Positions 26,303-32,668 of a stretch of DNA of 64,000 bases are shown here, one piece after another (positions within the stretch are counted from its first letter, which is position 1; the number at the start of each line of letters is the position of its first letter). The translations under genes and the position numbers were made by a program. The stretch is from an uncultured Olleya sp. (GTDB lineage: Bacteria; Bacteroidota; Bacteroidia; Flavobacteriales; Flavobacteriaceae). The notes under the pieces were generated by a model. The model saw only the letters and a program-made list of their open reading frames with translations. It made no database searches and was not told where the DNA came from. The DNA lies in NCBI GenBank assembly GCA_947503885.1, contig CANNFD010000001.1, positions 310,001 to 374,000 on the forward strand, read 5' to 3'.

Positions 26303-26761
26303 CTACTCTTTACATTGTCGTCTAGTGTCAATAATATAAATTATTTTCCAAGTCTCATTATCTTTTATTAACTGAAAAGAGTTAACACCACAATGACTTT
26401 TTTGGTCATTATACCAAAACTCATAAGGGGTCCAAACATTTGCCATATTACCATCAATTTGCACACTATAACTAATTAGGCTTTCAAAAAATGTATCTGT
26501 TTCTGGTATAGCAATAATTTGATTTAAAAAATCTTCAAAACTAGAAGTAGTTAATGTGACAATAGCCTCTTTGTTTCTGGATATAGATTGCATTATAGCA
26601 TCCTTAAATACCACACTTTTTATAAGCGCACTATCTTGAGCGTGGAAACCTGCAAAAAATACTTCAATGGTTTCTATTACCTTTTCTTGTTTTTGGTTTT
26701 CATTTTGAGAAACACCTATAACAGAAACCAATAGTAATAGGACAATAGCAAATAGCTTCAT
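26303..26761 (-). CDS. Secreted NTF2/SnoaL-like protein
   Basis: The 152-residue protein has a signal peptide (KLFAIVLLLLVSVIGVSQ, cleavage after residue 19). It then has the NTF2-like cone fold pattern: a long helix with IETIEVFFAGFHAQDSALIKSVV, a second helix SSFEDFLNQI, and a beta-sheet ending NMANVWTPYEFWYNDQKSHCGVNSFQLIKDNETWKIIYI. Homologs bind small ligands or have no known role; no catalytic residues can be named. It stands alone, convergent with the serine dehydratase gene (10 bp apart), with TATATTTA (one mismatch) as a -7 candidate upstream. Confidence 0.8.
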   Translation of the reverse strand: MKLFAIVLLLLVSVIGVSQNENQKQEKVIETIEVFFAGFHAQDSALIKSVVFKDAIMQSISRNKEAIVTLTTSSFEDFLNQIIAIPETDTFFESLISYSVQIDGNMANVWTPYEFWYNDQKSHCGVNSFQLIKDNETWKIIYIIDTRRQCKE

Positions 26762-26873: not shown

Positions 26874-27692
26874 ATGTCTGTAGCAAAAAAAGAATACAAA
26901 AGGGTTACCGTTAAATCATTAGTGGATATGAAAAAGAATGGAGAAAAAATCTCCATGCTTACTGCTTACGATTATACTATGGCTAAAATAGTAGACGGTG
27001 CTGGTACAGATGTTATATTAGTTGGTGATTCTGCTAGTAACGTAATGGCTGGTCACGAAACTACTTTACCAATAACTTTAGACCAAATGATATATCATGC
27101 GTCTTCTGTTGTGCGTGCCATACACCGATCGTTAGTTGTAGTAGATTTACCATTTGGTAGCTACCAAAGCGATCCTAAAGAAGCCTTACGTAGTGCAATT
27201 AGAATCATGAAAGAGTCTGGTGGTCACGCTGTAAAAATGGAAGGTGGTAAAGAAGTTAAAGAGTCTATCAAACGTATTTTAAATGCAGGTATCCCTGTAA
27301 TGGGACATTTAGGTTTAACACCTCAATCTATCTATAAATTTGGTACTTATACCGTTCGTGCAAAAGAGGACCAAGAAGCCTTACAGCTTAAAGAAGACGC
27401 TTTAATGCTTGAAAAAGCAGGGTGTTTTGCAATTGTATTAGAAAAAATACCTGCAAAATTAGCACAAGAAGTTGCCCAAAGCGTTTCTATACCGGTTATT
27501 GGTATTGGTGCTGGTAATGGTGTTGACGGTCAAGTATTGGTAACCCATGATATGATTGGAATGACACATGAATTTAACCCAAGATTTTTACGTCGTTACA
27601 TGAATTTGTACGAGGATATGACCAATGCAATTACACAATATGGCAACGATGTAAAAAGTGGTGATTTCCCTAGTGATAAAGAGCAATATTAA
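26874..27692 (+). CDS. panB: 3-Methyl-2-oxobutanoate hydroxymethyltransferase (PanB)
   Basis: The 272-residue TIM-barrel enzyme shows [52 protein letters not shown] and the catalytic glutamate segment [10 protein letters not shown], with [17 protein letters not shown]. It makes ketopantoate from 2-oxoisovalerate and methylene-THF, the first step of pantothenate synthesis. TACATTTA (26842-26849, one mismatch) is a -7 candidate 24 nt upstream. The following pseudouridine synthase gene starts 43 bp later and is probably co-transcribed. Secure assignment. Confidence 0.97.
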
Positions 27693-27735
27693 TTTGGCTT
27701 TTAGCTATTAGCTATTGGTTTTTATTCCAAAAAAA

Positions 27736-28431
27736 GTGTCAAAAATACTTTCTAATAAAGACAATCTTCAAGTAATTTACGAAGACAACCATATTATCGT
27801 AGTTAATAAACGTGCTGGAGATATAGTACAAGGCGATAAAACGGGTGACAAACCCTTAAGTGATGTTGTTAAAGACTATATAGCGGTAAAGTATAACAAG
27901 CCTGGCAATGTGTATTTAGGTACCGTTCACCGTTTAGACAGGCCAACAACAGGTCTAGTTATATTTTCTAAAACCAGTAAAGCCTTACCAAGATTAAATA
28001 AGTTGTTTGTATCTAAAGACATCTCTAAAACCTATTGGGCTTTGGTAAAAAACAAACCAGAAAAAGAAACTGATACTCTAATCCATTGGCTTAAAAAAAA
28101 TCCCAAAAACAATAAATCTACAGCCTATATTAAAGAAGTGCCAGAAAGCAAAAAAGCAATTCTGCATTATAAAATAATTAAAAAACTGGACAACTATTAT
28201 CTACTAGAAGTAAATCTAGAAACGGGACGTCACCACCAAATACGCTCGCAATTATCAAGTATAGGATCTCCGATTAAAGGTGATTTAAAATACGGATTTG
28301 ACCGTAGTAACAAAGATGCAAGCATCAGCCTACATGCTAGAAACATTAAGTTTATCCATCCTGTATCAAAAGATAATTTAGATATTACTGCTCCCTTACC
28401 TAACGACCCTATTTGGGACGCTTGCCTTTAA
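27736..28431 (+). CDS. RluA-family pseudouridine synthase
   Basis: I chose GTG 27736, since it gives a normal N-terminus (SKILSNKDNLQVIYEDNHIIVVNKRAG); a TTG at 27715 is an alternative and reads into spacer sequence. The 231-residue catalytic domain has the RluA motif VHRLDRPTTGLVIFSKT with the nucleophilic aspartate, ETGRHHQIRSQLSSIGSPIKGD, and LHARNIKFIHP. It converts uridine to pseudouridine in rRNA or tRNA; the target is not predictable. There is no N-terminal S4 domain. It follows panB by 43 bp and is followed by a nested inverted-repeat element. Confidence 0.93.
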   Translation: MSKILSNKDNLQVIYEDNHIIVVNKRAGDIVQGDKTGDKPLSDVVKDYIAVKYNKPGNVYLGTVHRLDRPTTGLVIFSKTSKALPRLNKLFVSKDISKTYWALVKNKPEKETDTLIHWLKKNPKNNKSTAYIKEVPESKKAILHYKIIKKLDNYYLLEVNLETGRHHQIRSQLSSIGSPIKGDLKYGFDRSNKDASISLHARNIKFIHPVSKDNLDITAPLPNDPIWDACL

Positions 28432-29946: not shown

Positions 29947-30774
29947 TTACTCAACTGTGCGATAAGGATAGGTTAATGTCAACATTACACCTTGGTTAAT
30001 TTTAGAGGTAAAATTAAGCTTAGCTTTAATTAGTTCTGATCTGCTTTTTATATTTATAAGACCTGAACCTTGCTCGATGGTTTCGTTGTCAAAACCAATT
30101 CCGTCATCTTTTAATGTCAAATGTAAAGTTGTATCGCTAAAATCTGCAGTTATTATTAAGTTATTAGCTTTGGCGTATTTTACAGTATTTGAAATAAACT
30201 CCTGTACAATTCTAAATAAGATTATTCCATCTTTAGGCTGATTAAACACTTCCGAATTACCTGTAATTATAAATGATGCTTCTAATAGTTTTAACTTATT
30301 TAAACGCTCAACTTCAGTAGTAACAGAAGCTACAAACCCTCTGTTTAACACCACATCGCTGTTTAAGGTTTTAGATAGTAAGCGTAACTCACTTAAACTT
30401 TGTTTAACAGCATTTTTAGTTTCCGTAAAAGACTCTTTTATAGACTCTGGAACTTGCATATTTAGGATACTCATGTTCATGTTAGCGACAGATAAAATCT
30501 GTCCCACGTTATCATGCAGCTCTTGCCCAATGTTTTTTAAGGTTTGCTCTTGTATTTCTATTTGTGTATTAGTAAGCTCTTCTTCAAATGCTTTTTGCTG
30601 TTTTACTTTATCTAAAATTAGTTGATTTTTTCTTTTTTGAAAGACGATAAAAAATAATATAATTAGAGTACATACAATTAGTAATATCCCAATCATATAT
30701 ATTAATAAATAACGCTCTGAGTTTGAGGAAATTGGAGCTTCTACGGTCTGTAATTGTATTAATAAATTAATCAT
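29947..30774 (-). CDS. Sensor histidine kinase (HisKA_3 / NarL-partner type)
   Basis: The 275-residue protein has one membrane helix at about 23-45 (LLIYMIGILLIVCTLIILFFIVF), a coiled linker, and the HisKA_3 dimerisation motif QELHDNVGQILSVANMNM with phosphate-accepting His87. The HATPase region ends DGIGFDNETIEQGSGLINIKSRSELI, with the G1 and G2 boxes intact. It should autophosphorylate and pass phosphate to a NarL/LuxR-type regulator, but none is encoded next to it. The N-terminal sensing part is almost absent. Its ATG overlaps the stop of the upstream seven-helix protein by 8 bp (ATGATTAA), so its input domain is probably supplied by that protein. Confidence 0.93.
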   Translation of the reverse strand: MINLLIQLQTVEAPISSNSERYLLIYMIGILLIVCTLIILFFIVFQKRKNQLILDKVKQQKAFEEELTNTQIEIQEQTLKNIGQELHDNVGQILSVANMNMSILNMQVPESIKESFTETKNAVKQSLSELRLLSKTLNSDVVLNRGFVASVTTEVERLNKLKLLEASFIITGNSEVFNQPKDGIILFRIVQEFISNTVKYAKANNLIITADFSDTTLHLTLKDDGIGFDNETIEQGSGLINIKSRSELIKAKLNFTSKINQGVMLTLTYPYRTVE

Positions 30775-31468
30775 CTTCTGGTTTTGATACTATTAGTCCA
30801 ACTGTAAAAGTAAGATACATTATATATATAACTGTAATGTTTATATATGAATTGAGATATACAAAATCTAAATCATCTTTATTTAAATACATCTCATAAA
30901 ATACTAATGGTGTTTTTATTAACCAAAATACTAAAATAGCTGTACTTATATAAAAATTAACAGATTTATGAAAACTTAGTATAGCATCACTTTGCAGGAT
31001 TTCAAAATAATAGAAAAACGCACATTGTAGGATAATAAAACTTCCATATATGGAAATTAAAGGAAATGAGCCTTTAAAAAACGCATCTAAATCACTTAGA
31101 ATTATACATAATGAAATTAATAAAAATATGTAAGTAGAGTATTTTAATATTTTAACATTTAGTTCAGTTTTTAATGTTTTTTGATAATACCAACTAAAAA
31201 AATAAACTGCTCCGATTTGCCATGATAAGGTAAACCACCAAAAATTTTTATTTAATAATGTCCCTTCTAAAAAACTTAAAATCCCATCTTTAATTAGATA
31301 AGTGTATTTTCCAACTATAGAAAGCAAAACAACATAACATAAAAAACCAATAAAATATTTGGTGTTTGTATGGCTGTGCTTTTTATAAAGTATCACTCCT
31401 GTAATTGCTGCTAAAACTTCTACTGATAGTATTAAATTACTATAATTTTCAAATATAAAATTGCTCAT
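30767..31468 (-). CDS. Seven-helix membrane protein, near-duplicate of its upstream neighbour
   Basis: The 233-residue protein has seven predicted membrane helices. The first is NLILSVEVLAAITGVILY; the third spans WWFTLSWQIGAVYFFSWYYQ; the last is INITVIYIMYLTFTVGLIVS. It aligns without gaps with the gene at 31470 over almost the whole length, sharing blocks such as KILKYSTY, CAFF--FEILQS-AIL-FHKS and WLIKTPL. The shape is that of 7TM sensory modules found fused to kinases in Bacteroidota, but here it is free-standing, and its stop overlaps the histidine kinase start. I infer a sensing role. There is no known family I can name. Confidence 0.75.
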   Translation of the reverse strand: MSNFIFENYSNLILSVEVLAAITGVILYKKHSHTNTKYFIGFLCYVVLLSIVGKYTYLIKDGILSFLEGTLLNKNFWWFTLSWQIGAVYFFSWYYQKTLKTELNVKILKYSTYIFLLISLCIILSDLDAFFKGSFPLISIYGSFIILQCAFFYYFEILQSDAILSFHKSVNFYISTAILVFWLIKTPLVFYEMYLNKDDLDFVYLNSYINITVIYIMYLTFTVGLIVSKPEDD

Positions 31469-31469
31469 T

Positions 31470-32192
31470 TTATTTATGTAATTCTTTTTTTATTTCTTTT
31501 TCTGGTTTTGACACTATAAATCCAACCGTAAAAGTCAGATACATTATAAATATAACGACTAAGTTAATATATGCCCTTAAGTGCACATAATCTTGATCAA
31601 TTTTTCTATAATAAATCTCGAAAAAAGCTAAAGGCGTTTTAATTAGCCAAAAGATTAAAATAGCACAACTTATATAAAAGTTAAGAGATTTATGAAAGTT
31701 TAAAATAGCTTCGCTTTGAAGTATTTCGAAAAAAAAGAAAAATGCACATTGCATTATGATTATACATCCACATATTGCAATTACAGGAAAACTTCCATTA
31801 AAAAAGAAGTTGATATTAGTAATTATAGTAAAAACCGAAACACCTAAAAACAAATAAGTTGAATATTTTAAGATTTTAATATTCAACTTGTTTTTAAGTA
31901 TCTTTTGATAGTACCAACTAAAAAAACTGACTGCGCCAATCTTCCAATTTAAAGTAAACCACCAATAATTTTTTTCAATTAGCGTCCCTTTTAAAAAATT
32001 AAAAAAACCGTTTTCTATCCAAAAAGTATAACGTCCAACTACAACTATAAAAACTACATAACATAAAAAGACAATAAAATATTTAGCAACTGTTTGGCTA
32101 TACTTATTATAAAGTATCAAACCAGTAACAGCTGCTAAAACTTCTACTGCCAACATTAAATTACTATAATGTTGTATTATAAAATCTTTCAA
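31470..32192 (-). CDS. Seven-helix membrane protein, first of a tandem pair
   Basis: The 240-residue protein has seven membrane helices and is clearly a recent paralog of the next gene (1 bp apart), with long identical runs: SNL-L-VEVLAA-TG-ILY, YFI-FLCYVV, FFSWYYQK, FTVG-IVSKPE. It differs by a basic C-terminal tail (KEIKKELHK) that would lie in the cytoplasm. It follows the anchored 155-residue protein by 8 bp. Conservation of both copies in one operon with a histidine kinase suggests a heteromeric receptor, which is an inference. Function unknown. Confidence 0.75.
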   Translation of the reverse strand: MKDFIIQHYSNLMLAVEVLAAVTGLILYNKYSQTVAKYFIVFLCYVVFIVVVGRYTFWIENGFFNFLKGTLIEKNYWWFTLNWKIGAVSFFSWYYQKILKNKLNIKILKYSTYLFLGVSVFTIITNINFFFNGSFPVIAICGCIIIMQCAFFFFFEILQSEAILNFHKSLNFYISCAILIFWLIKTPLAFFEIYYRKIDQDYVHLRAYINLVVIFIMYLTFTVGFIVSKPEKEIKKELHK

Positions 32193-32200
32193 ATAATTTT

Positions 32201-32668
32201 TTATTGAGGGTATGCAGCTGTTGGAGGCATCCCTTTGTCTCCTTCATCAAGTCCATCTGCACCTGATATATCATTGTTTTGTTTTGTTTTTGCATCAAGC
32301 TCTGTTGGCACCATAAAAATAGTAGTGTATCCTCCGGAACCTGCTGCTGTATCAACACCTAAATAAAAACGTAATCCATTAGCACTTGGATGTGTTGTTT
32401 TTACGGTTTGAATAAAACTTGATAAATCATCTAGAGAATACCATGACGAACGGTTATCACCTTCGTTAAATGCTACAGAATCGTTTACAGTTTTTCTTAA
32501 ATTAGTCCAGTTATCGCTTAAATCTTTTGCATCTTGAGCAGAAATAATCCCGCTTGGAGGTGTACTTGGTGTTGACATAGGTGGTGTTTGATTAGAATTG
32601 TTAAAGTAAAAATACGCAGCAGTTGCGCCAATAAGTAAGCCAAAGACTAGGCTTCCTAAGTTTTTCAT
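32201..32668 (-). CDS. Small membrane-anchored or exported protein of unknown function
   Basis: The 155-residue protein has an N-terminal hydrophobic segment (GSLVFGLLIGATAAYFYF) and then a Pro/Ser/Thr-rich linker (about 28-40). The folded part opens IISAQDAKDLSDNWTNLRKTV and includes GLRFYLGVDTAAGSGGYTTIFMVPTELD. The last residues, ISGADGLDEGDKGMPPTAAYP, are acidic and Gly/Pro-rich. I recall hypothetical proteins with this GLRFYLG...FMVPT pattern in Bacteroidota, with no assigned role. As first gene of the four-gene operon with two 7TM proteins and a kinase, it could be a periplasmic ligand-binding or cell-surface partner, but nothing in the sequence proves it. Confidence 0.65.
   Translation of the reverse strand: MKNLGSLVFGLLIGATAAYFYFNNSNQTPPMSTPSTPPSGIISAQDAKDLSDNWTNLRKTVNDSVAFNEGDNRSSWYSLDDLSSFIQTVKTTHPSANGLRFYLGVDTAAGSGGYTTIFMVPTELDAKTKQNNDISGADGLDEGDKGMPPTAAYPQ

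Follow-up and report, generated by a model that had tools for sequence, protein, structure and literature searches.

A 64,000-nucleotide stretch of the genome of an uncultured Olleya sp. (contig CANNFD010000001.1, positions 310,001 to 374,000; hereafter the window) carries a compact operon of four genes on its reverse strand (positions 29947-32668), encoding a small protein with an N-terminal hydrophobic helix (ANC), two duplicate seven-transmembrane (7TM) proteins, and a short histidine kinase (Table 1). The genes are separated by gaps of 8 and 1 bp and then overlap by 8 bp, exactly as given in a preliminary description made from the sequence alone, and no receiver gene adjoins them among the flanking genes, which belong to metabolic and other Pfam families, as that description had also remarked. 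We consider it likely that this is a split sensor within a rearranged pathway, in which each of two signaling systems lost the half that the other kept, leaving an orphan kinase that now signals to RR72, a response regulator encoded elsewhere in the genome.

Table 1. Genes of the sensor operon and its synteny anchor in the window
Feature	Coordinates	Strand	Remarks
ANC, small soluble domain with one N-terminal hydrophobic helix	32201..32668	-	155 aa
7TM-a, membrane protein, duplicate of 7TM-b	31470..32192	-	240 aa; TTG start
7TM-b, seven-helix membrane protein	30767..31468	-	233 aa
Short HisKA_3/HATPase_c histidine kinase	29947..30774	-	275 aa; 8-bp overlap with 7TM-b
PanB and RluA-like genes, outside the sensor	26874..28431	+	Synteny anchor of the cassette in both groups

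The four-gene operon is real and conserved, and its arrangement recurs far beyond chance. Homologues of the 7TM proteins are present in 24 of 60 drawn genomes (that of the window included), and all 27 regions fetched code, like the window, for 7TM proteins and a kinase, with ANC upstream in all except L052, which starts near a contig end. The comparison was widened to 196 7TM clusters in five sets: A (the first-draw loci and the window), B and Bx (wider relatives), C (named loci), and D. These sets are nonrandom, with C chosen by closeness to the window 7TM proteins, five of the seven Bx loci reached via regulator hits, and D assembled via RR72 and 7TM scores. A histidine kinase adjoins the 7TM cluster in 191 of the 196 (A, 28/28; B, 50/53; Bx, 7/7; C, 76/78; D, 30/30), the five exceptions being L249, which lies at a contig end, L145, L149, L187, and L266. 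An ANC homologue is upstream in 180 of the 196, and 14 of the 16 exceptions are in set B. The proposal that 7TM subunits, a small protein, and a short kinase form a split receptor encoded as one unit is thus supported, and the contrary case that it had named, 7TM and kinase genes unlinked in most relatives, is not what the gene orders show.

Among 296 genomes drawn across the phylum Bacteroidota, 7TM homologues occur in 38 and ANC homologues in 29; none of the 7TM matches listed could be a fusion with a kinase, their stop-to-stop frames spanning 111-290 aa. Cassettes without an adjacent regulator more often have two or more 7TM copies (29/119) than those with one (4/72), all sets considered. 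The genome of the window (G000) also has a second cassette on contig C2 (L033:4296-6967), where ANC and 7TM genes stand beside a LytS-type kinase and a LytTR regulator; judging by gene order, the same predicted ANC-7TM input module serves two kinase classes and its output appears to be swappable. An extreme array of three ANC and five 7TM genes ahead of one kinase is present in Bizionia arctica (L247:4502-10197), and Lacinutrix himadriensis (L203) is another named species whose genome carries the cassette.

Cassettes differ in whether a response regulator accompanies them. An adjacent LuxR/NarL-type or LytTR regulator is present in 10/28 cassettes of set A, 37/50 of set B, 7/7 of Bx, 18/30 of D, and 0/76 of C. 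Both kinds share their genomic place, with an RluA-like gene at 29 of the 30 7TM loci read (the exception is L364), and they are therefore orthologous by position. The regulator-bearing state would be the older one, because it is spread in other families and orders, and we infer that the regulator missing from the window was lost secondarily, since a regulator is usually the next gene in wider relatives (37 of 50 in set B). When the cassette regulator family was searched for in 24 genomes having a cassette, the genome of the window had no close member (best score, 98.5 bits, versus at least 265.7 bits for eleven clear members), which favors loss over relocation there. The preliminary picture of a sensor without a response regulator is accordingly true of the window's group but not general, the regulator being the next gene in other groups.

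That description had also proposed seeking a co-occurring NarL-type regulator, and one exists. RR72, encoded on contig C2, scores over the Pfam cut-offs for Response_reg (82.5 bits; cut-off, 30.2) and GerE (41 bits; cut-off, 23.5), as in NarL/LuxR-type regulators, and its receiver residues DD, D, T, and K are invariant among 13 RR72 sequences. No kinase accompanies it in the genome of the window, where its neighbors are a CHAT-TPR protein and a retropepsin-like aspartic protease, both directly upstream (L072:689-3698), and a convergent 2-oxoacid dehydrogenase E2 gene (odhB-like). In two genomes with the cassette regulator kept (G021 and G036), the RR72 locus is instead organized as protease, kinase (692 and 669 aa), and RR72, the kinase (HK72) having TPR, HisKA_3, and HATPase_c domains; in 14 genomes with a regulator-less cassette, this kinase is missing. 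Thirty further genomes, picked by 7TM score to include both kinds from the 115 family genomes with RR72 and a 7TM hit, were read at both loci: 18 keep both genes, with 2054-2092 bp between protease and RR72, and 12 have neither, with 13-67 bp between them. In all, 20 of the 46 genomes read at both loci keep the cassette regulator together with HK72 (the keepers, the sister group), 26 lack both (the loss group), and none is mixed; the RR72 locus of every one of the 46 retains the protease gene. Nine more genomes read from 1.5-kb flanks (G367, G372, G446, G464, G485, G489, G523, G553, and G578) are without both, and G393 and G479 were left out, their flanks stopping at or before the kinase end.

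Across 299 family genomes, RR72 is found in 122 (E ≤ 1e-80) and HK72 in 37 (E ≤ 1e-150), in each case as the gene immediately before one for an RR72-family regulator; at most three candidates per genome were scored for HK72, so that divergent copies can be missed. G509 has HK72 beside a second RR72 copy and is counted as without it at the main RR72. RR72 is present in 78 of the 80 genomes that have a 7TM hit at E ≤ 1e-57, and the other two (G030 and G035) have cassettes with their own regulator.

Residue changes in RR72 point in the same direction. The 26 loss-group and 20 keeper RR72 sequences were compared with the 20 keeper cassette regulators, 42 regulators of the wider cassette family, and 6 related regulators with their own kinase. 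The largest shifts toward the keeper cassette regulators are at residues 84 and 87, both in the loop that immediately follows the conserved Thr82; residue 86 ranks sixth. Residue 84 is H in all 20 keeper RR72 sequences and all 6 related regulators, and E or D in 25 of the 26 loss-group sequences and 19 of the 20 keeper cassette regulators; phosphoryl chemistry is tuned by the residue at Thr+2. Residue 87 is K or R in 18 of 20 keeper RR72 sequences, E in 20 of 26 loss-group sequences and 19 of 20 keeper cassette regulators, and E or D throughout the 42 wider regulators. The pattern fits a regulator that may have adapted to an unchanged kinase, with which it is compatible without proving it.

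The cassette kinase scores above the Pfam cut-offs for HisKA_3 (42.1 bits; cut-off, 24) and HATPase_c (37 bits; cut-off, 26.4), and a single hydrophobic stretch is visible by eye at its N terminus. In the pathway that we propose, the 7TM proteins would be the membrane receptor subunits of a two-component system, with ANC beside them (membrane tethered and probably exported in the window form) as a ligand binder or modulator. Together they would act on the short HisKA_3 kinase, whose one membrane helix would pack against the 7TM proteins in a putative complex. The ancestral kinase would have phosphorylated a NarL/LuxR-type regulator encoded by an adjacent gene. The window's group would have lost this cassette regulator gene, and at the distant locus, in which aspartic protease, HK72, and RR72 genes lie beside that for 2-oxoacid dehydrogenase E2, HK72 would have been lost and RR72 would have stayed, such that the cassette kinase most likely phosphorylates RR72 in trans.

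In a quick tree of OdhB, PanB, and RluA (905 columns, 46 genomes), which is not independent of the two loci because its genes are their neighbors, one branch with a Shimodaira-Hasegawa-like approximate likelihood ratio (SH-aLRT) of 100 divides the keepers from the loss group. Several observations nevertheless weigh against the reconstruction. Both absences fall on that branch, so the 46 genomes represent one joint event; it is from this single event that we infer the partnership of kinase and RR72, and chance alone could remove complementary halves. Of the RR72 genomes, 81 of 86 without HK72 and 34 of 36 with it have the cassette; these frequencies do not differ and are confounded by kinship, so co-occurrence proves nothing alone and was rejected as proof of partnership. 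Five RR72 genomes (G406, G444, G459, G539, and G545), two of them 99% complete, have neither HK72 nor a 7TM protein detected, so RR72 may receive other inputs, or distant kinases escaped detection. A shift of the kinase toward HK72 was looked for among the residues of its dimerization and histidine phosphotransfer domain, and none is clear. In RR72 itself, residue 128 moved strongly away from the cassette regulators, and the mean shift is similar in the receiver (0.076) and the helix-turn-helix domain (0.055). Loss-group RR72 sequences are also more varied, which lowers their distance to anything, and most of the 42 wider regulators have Q or N at residue 84 (about a fifth have E or D), so that the match there holds for the cassette regulator of the sister group only.

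The same single phylogenetic event, together with the five RR72 genomes in which neither input was detected and the 23 receiver domains encoded in the genome of the window (LytTR, OmpR-like, hybrid, and single-domain proteins among them, the remainder of which stay candidate partners), can be read as a real split sensor with two unrelated losses. The kinase would then use another regulator, such as a single-domain receiver or RR73, and RR72 would be served by another kinase or act unphosphorylated. Unrelated losses do not readily account for the lack of mixed genomes among the 46, for the retention of both orphan genes throughout the loss group, or for the loop of RR72 having acquired residues of the sister group's cassette regulator, and we regard this explanation as unlikely.

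Other regulators were considered as partners. Profile A1 has eight matches in the genome of the window, the full-length ones listed being RR72, RR73, and RR74. RR73 (G000:C7) was set aside because it adjoins its own 1005-aa HisKA_3 kinase, and RR74 (L074:3043-3666) because its receiver looks degenerate by eye, with its Asp pair broken to D-S and Glu at the phosphosite; RR74 is an orphan between what we take to be nadE- and dnaG-like genes. Two divergent regulators match the receiver family only, one near a contig end (L078) and one beside a TPR kinase (L079). In L218:809-5018, L235:811-5019, and L244:821-5021, two of which are on contigs labelled Bizionia, genes that by eye resemble peptidase-type ABC exporters and a divergent regulator lie directly upstream of cassettes with a leaderless ANC; this regulator was rejected as a partner, being of another type and 22-26% identical to RR72, RR73, and the cassette regulators. 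Further regulators lie upstream of the cassette in L348 and 3.6 kb upstream in L205.

The two 7TM proteins of the window share 65% of their residues and their genes are 73.5% identical, with no exact shared run of at least 20 nt; they are duplicates, although "nearly identical in blocks", as they were initially characterized, was generous. Neither has a match in Pfam at E ≤ 1, the 7TMR-DISM and 5TMR-LYT families included, or in NCBIfam at E ≤ 0.1, and five related 7TM proteins gave just two weak Pfam hits (E, 0.27 and 0.46), to families other than these two. The AlphaFold2 model of the 233-aa copy, 7TM-b, has seven long helices (mean predicted local distance difference test score [pLDDT], 90.9). 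Among 64 sequences, the putative inner loops average 6.4 Lys/Arg residues and the outer loops 4.3, a modest bias that would favor an N-out/C-in orientation. Foldseek finds no significant match to the model (all E > 0.5), and VIA-align places G protein-coupled receptors (GPCRs) first (best, 7xp6; Z, 12.4; root mean square deviation, 4.4; 218 residues aligned), in a range that the tool calls common for helical bundles, with one microbial rhodopsin among the 50 rows listed. The likeness of the model to GPCRs and rhodopsin may reflect only a common helical-bundle arrangement and shows no function. It is thus conceivable, given also the absence of a family match, that the 7TM proteins are transporters or enzymes monitored by the kinase rather than receptor subunits; we think this improbable, as the kinase itself has next to no input domain and kinases of two different classes are consistently accompanied by the 7TM gene. 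That the window kinase serves chiefly as a phosphatase, or is decaying after the loss of its pathway, as the disappearance of the regulator gene from the operon might suggest, is very unlikely, since the His-, N-, and G-box residues are intact both in it and in the loss-group consensus, and 76 of the 78 named loci (set C) have the kinase, 19 of them with extra 7TM copies.

ANC is modelled by AlphaFold2 as a helix (residues 4-24) followed by an alpha/beta domain (pLDDT, 88.9). It has no Pfam match at E ≤ 1, no NCBIfam match at E ≤ 0.1, and no structural match (Foldseek E of at least 0.2; best VIA Z, 2.2), from which absence of matches we do not conclude that the fold is new. By our own hydropathy rule, applied to the longest open reading frame and with a few doubtful longer N termini among the keepers, ANC is leaderless in all 18 regulator-keeping loci of set D, and thus presumably cytoplasmic there. 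In the named regulator-less set, 67 of 83 ANC proteins have an N-terminal hydrophobic helix, 15 are leaderless, and 1 is lipobox-like, and those with a regulator in sets B and Bx comprise 13 lipobox-like, 13 anchored, and 14 leaderless proteins. A single ANC domain therefore seems to function on one side of the membrane or the other, and a periplasmic role fits at most the anchored form: the periplasmic partner initially proposed may suit the window's ANC but is not general, the protein being leaderless in the keeper loci of set D and in part of the others. Several leaderless keeper ANC proteins (L366, L374, L376, L380, L388, L390, and L394) start with M-x-K-P-x-[KN]-C-I-[ST], and the anchored forms aligned have other residues at the Cys.

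Beyond the operon, a Mg-chelatase/ComM-like gene lies upstream of ANC on the same strand, and downstream of the kinase, on the opposite strand, are genes for an aldehyde dehydrogenase, an RluA-like pseudouridine synthase, and ketopantoate hydroxymethyltransferase (PanB), all assigned with Pfam. A small protein encoded at 26303-26761 has weak similarity to Lumazine_bd_2, under the Pfam cut-off.

The cassette kinase has its best NCBIfam score with UhpB (81.8 bits), far below the cut-off of 408, and UhpABC of Escherichia coli resembles the cassette in that UhpB is a HisKA_3 kinase. UhpABC has a separate membrane sensor, UhpC, and a NarL-type regulator, UhpA; UhpC is transporter-like, and UhpB, unlike the cassette kinase, carries a large membrane part of its own. 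Strep_LiaS is also among the kinase's NCBIfam matches (75.6 bits; cut-off, 450), at a score too low for a LiaS equivalog, and we know of no 7TM receptor of the window's family and no ANC protein in LiaFSR. LiaFSR of Bacillus is described as a "three-component system" in which a separate membrane accessory protein operates with a kinase and a regulator, much as in the cassette, but LiaR stays in the liaGFSR operon (PMC3543457), whereas the window operon has no regulator and that of the sister group has one. BtsS/5TMR-LYT and 7TMR-DISM proteins are seven-helix bacterial receptors tied to kinases (PMC10653868), with the membrane part within the kinase polypeptide; those of the window are separate open reading frames, and the 7TM gene is often duplicated. 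From its sequence, then, the cassette is predicted to work like LiaFSR and UhpABC. Its kinase score and gene content show that it is not LiaFSR, and it is also distinct from BtsS and other fused 7TM kinases. One study describes orphan kinases and regulators as frequent among marine bacteria (PMC6365647), and in Myxococcus the orphan kinase SgmT and the orphan regulator DigR are partners, although neither a 7TM subunit nor reciprocal loss is mentioned in the available part of that report (PMC3509222). A literature search, with most subscription papers outside its reach, yielded nothing recognized as concerning an ANC-7TM-kinase cassette or reciprocal loss between two-component systems.

The cassettes represent an uncharacterized modular class of putative bacterial 7TM receptors, built from separate subunits that are often duplicated and that pair with kinases of two classes. 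We lean, with some reserve, toward a partner swap in one Flavobacteriaceae-like group, by which two independent systems would have fused into a hybrid path, with a split 7TM sensor driving the regulator of a TPR-kinase system and an active-site loop re-evolved to fit. If true, the swap would be a natural experiment on the rewiring of kinase-regulator specificity, with the old state represented by 20 genomes and the new by 26, and would offer a short list of candidate residues, RR72 positions 84, 86, and 87, whose exchange could be made and measured.

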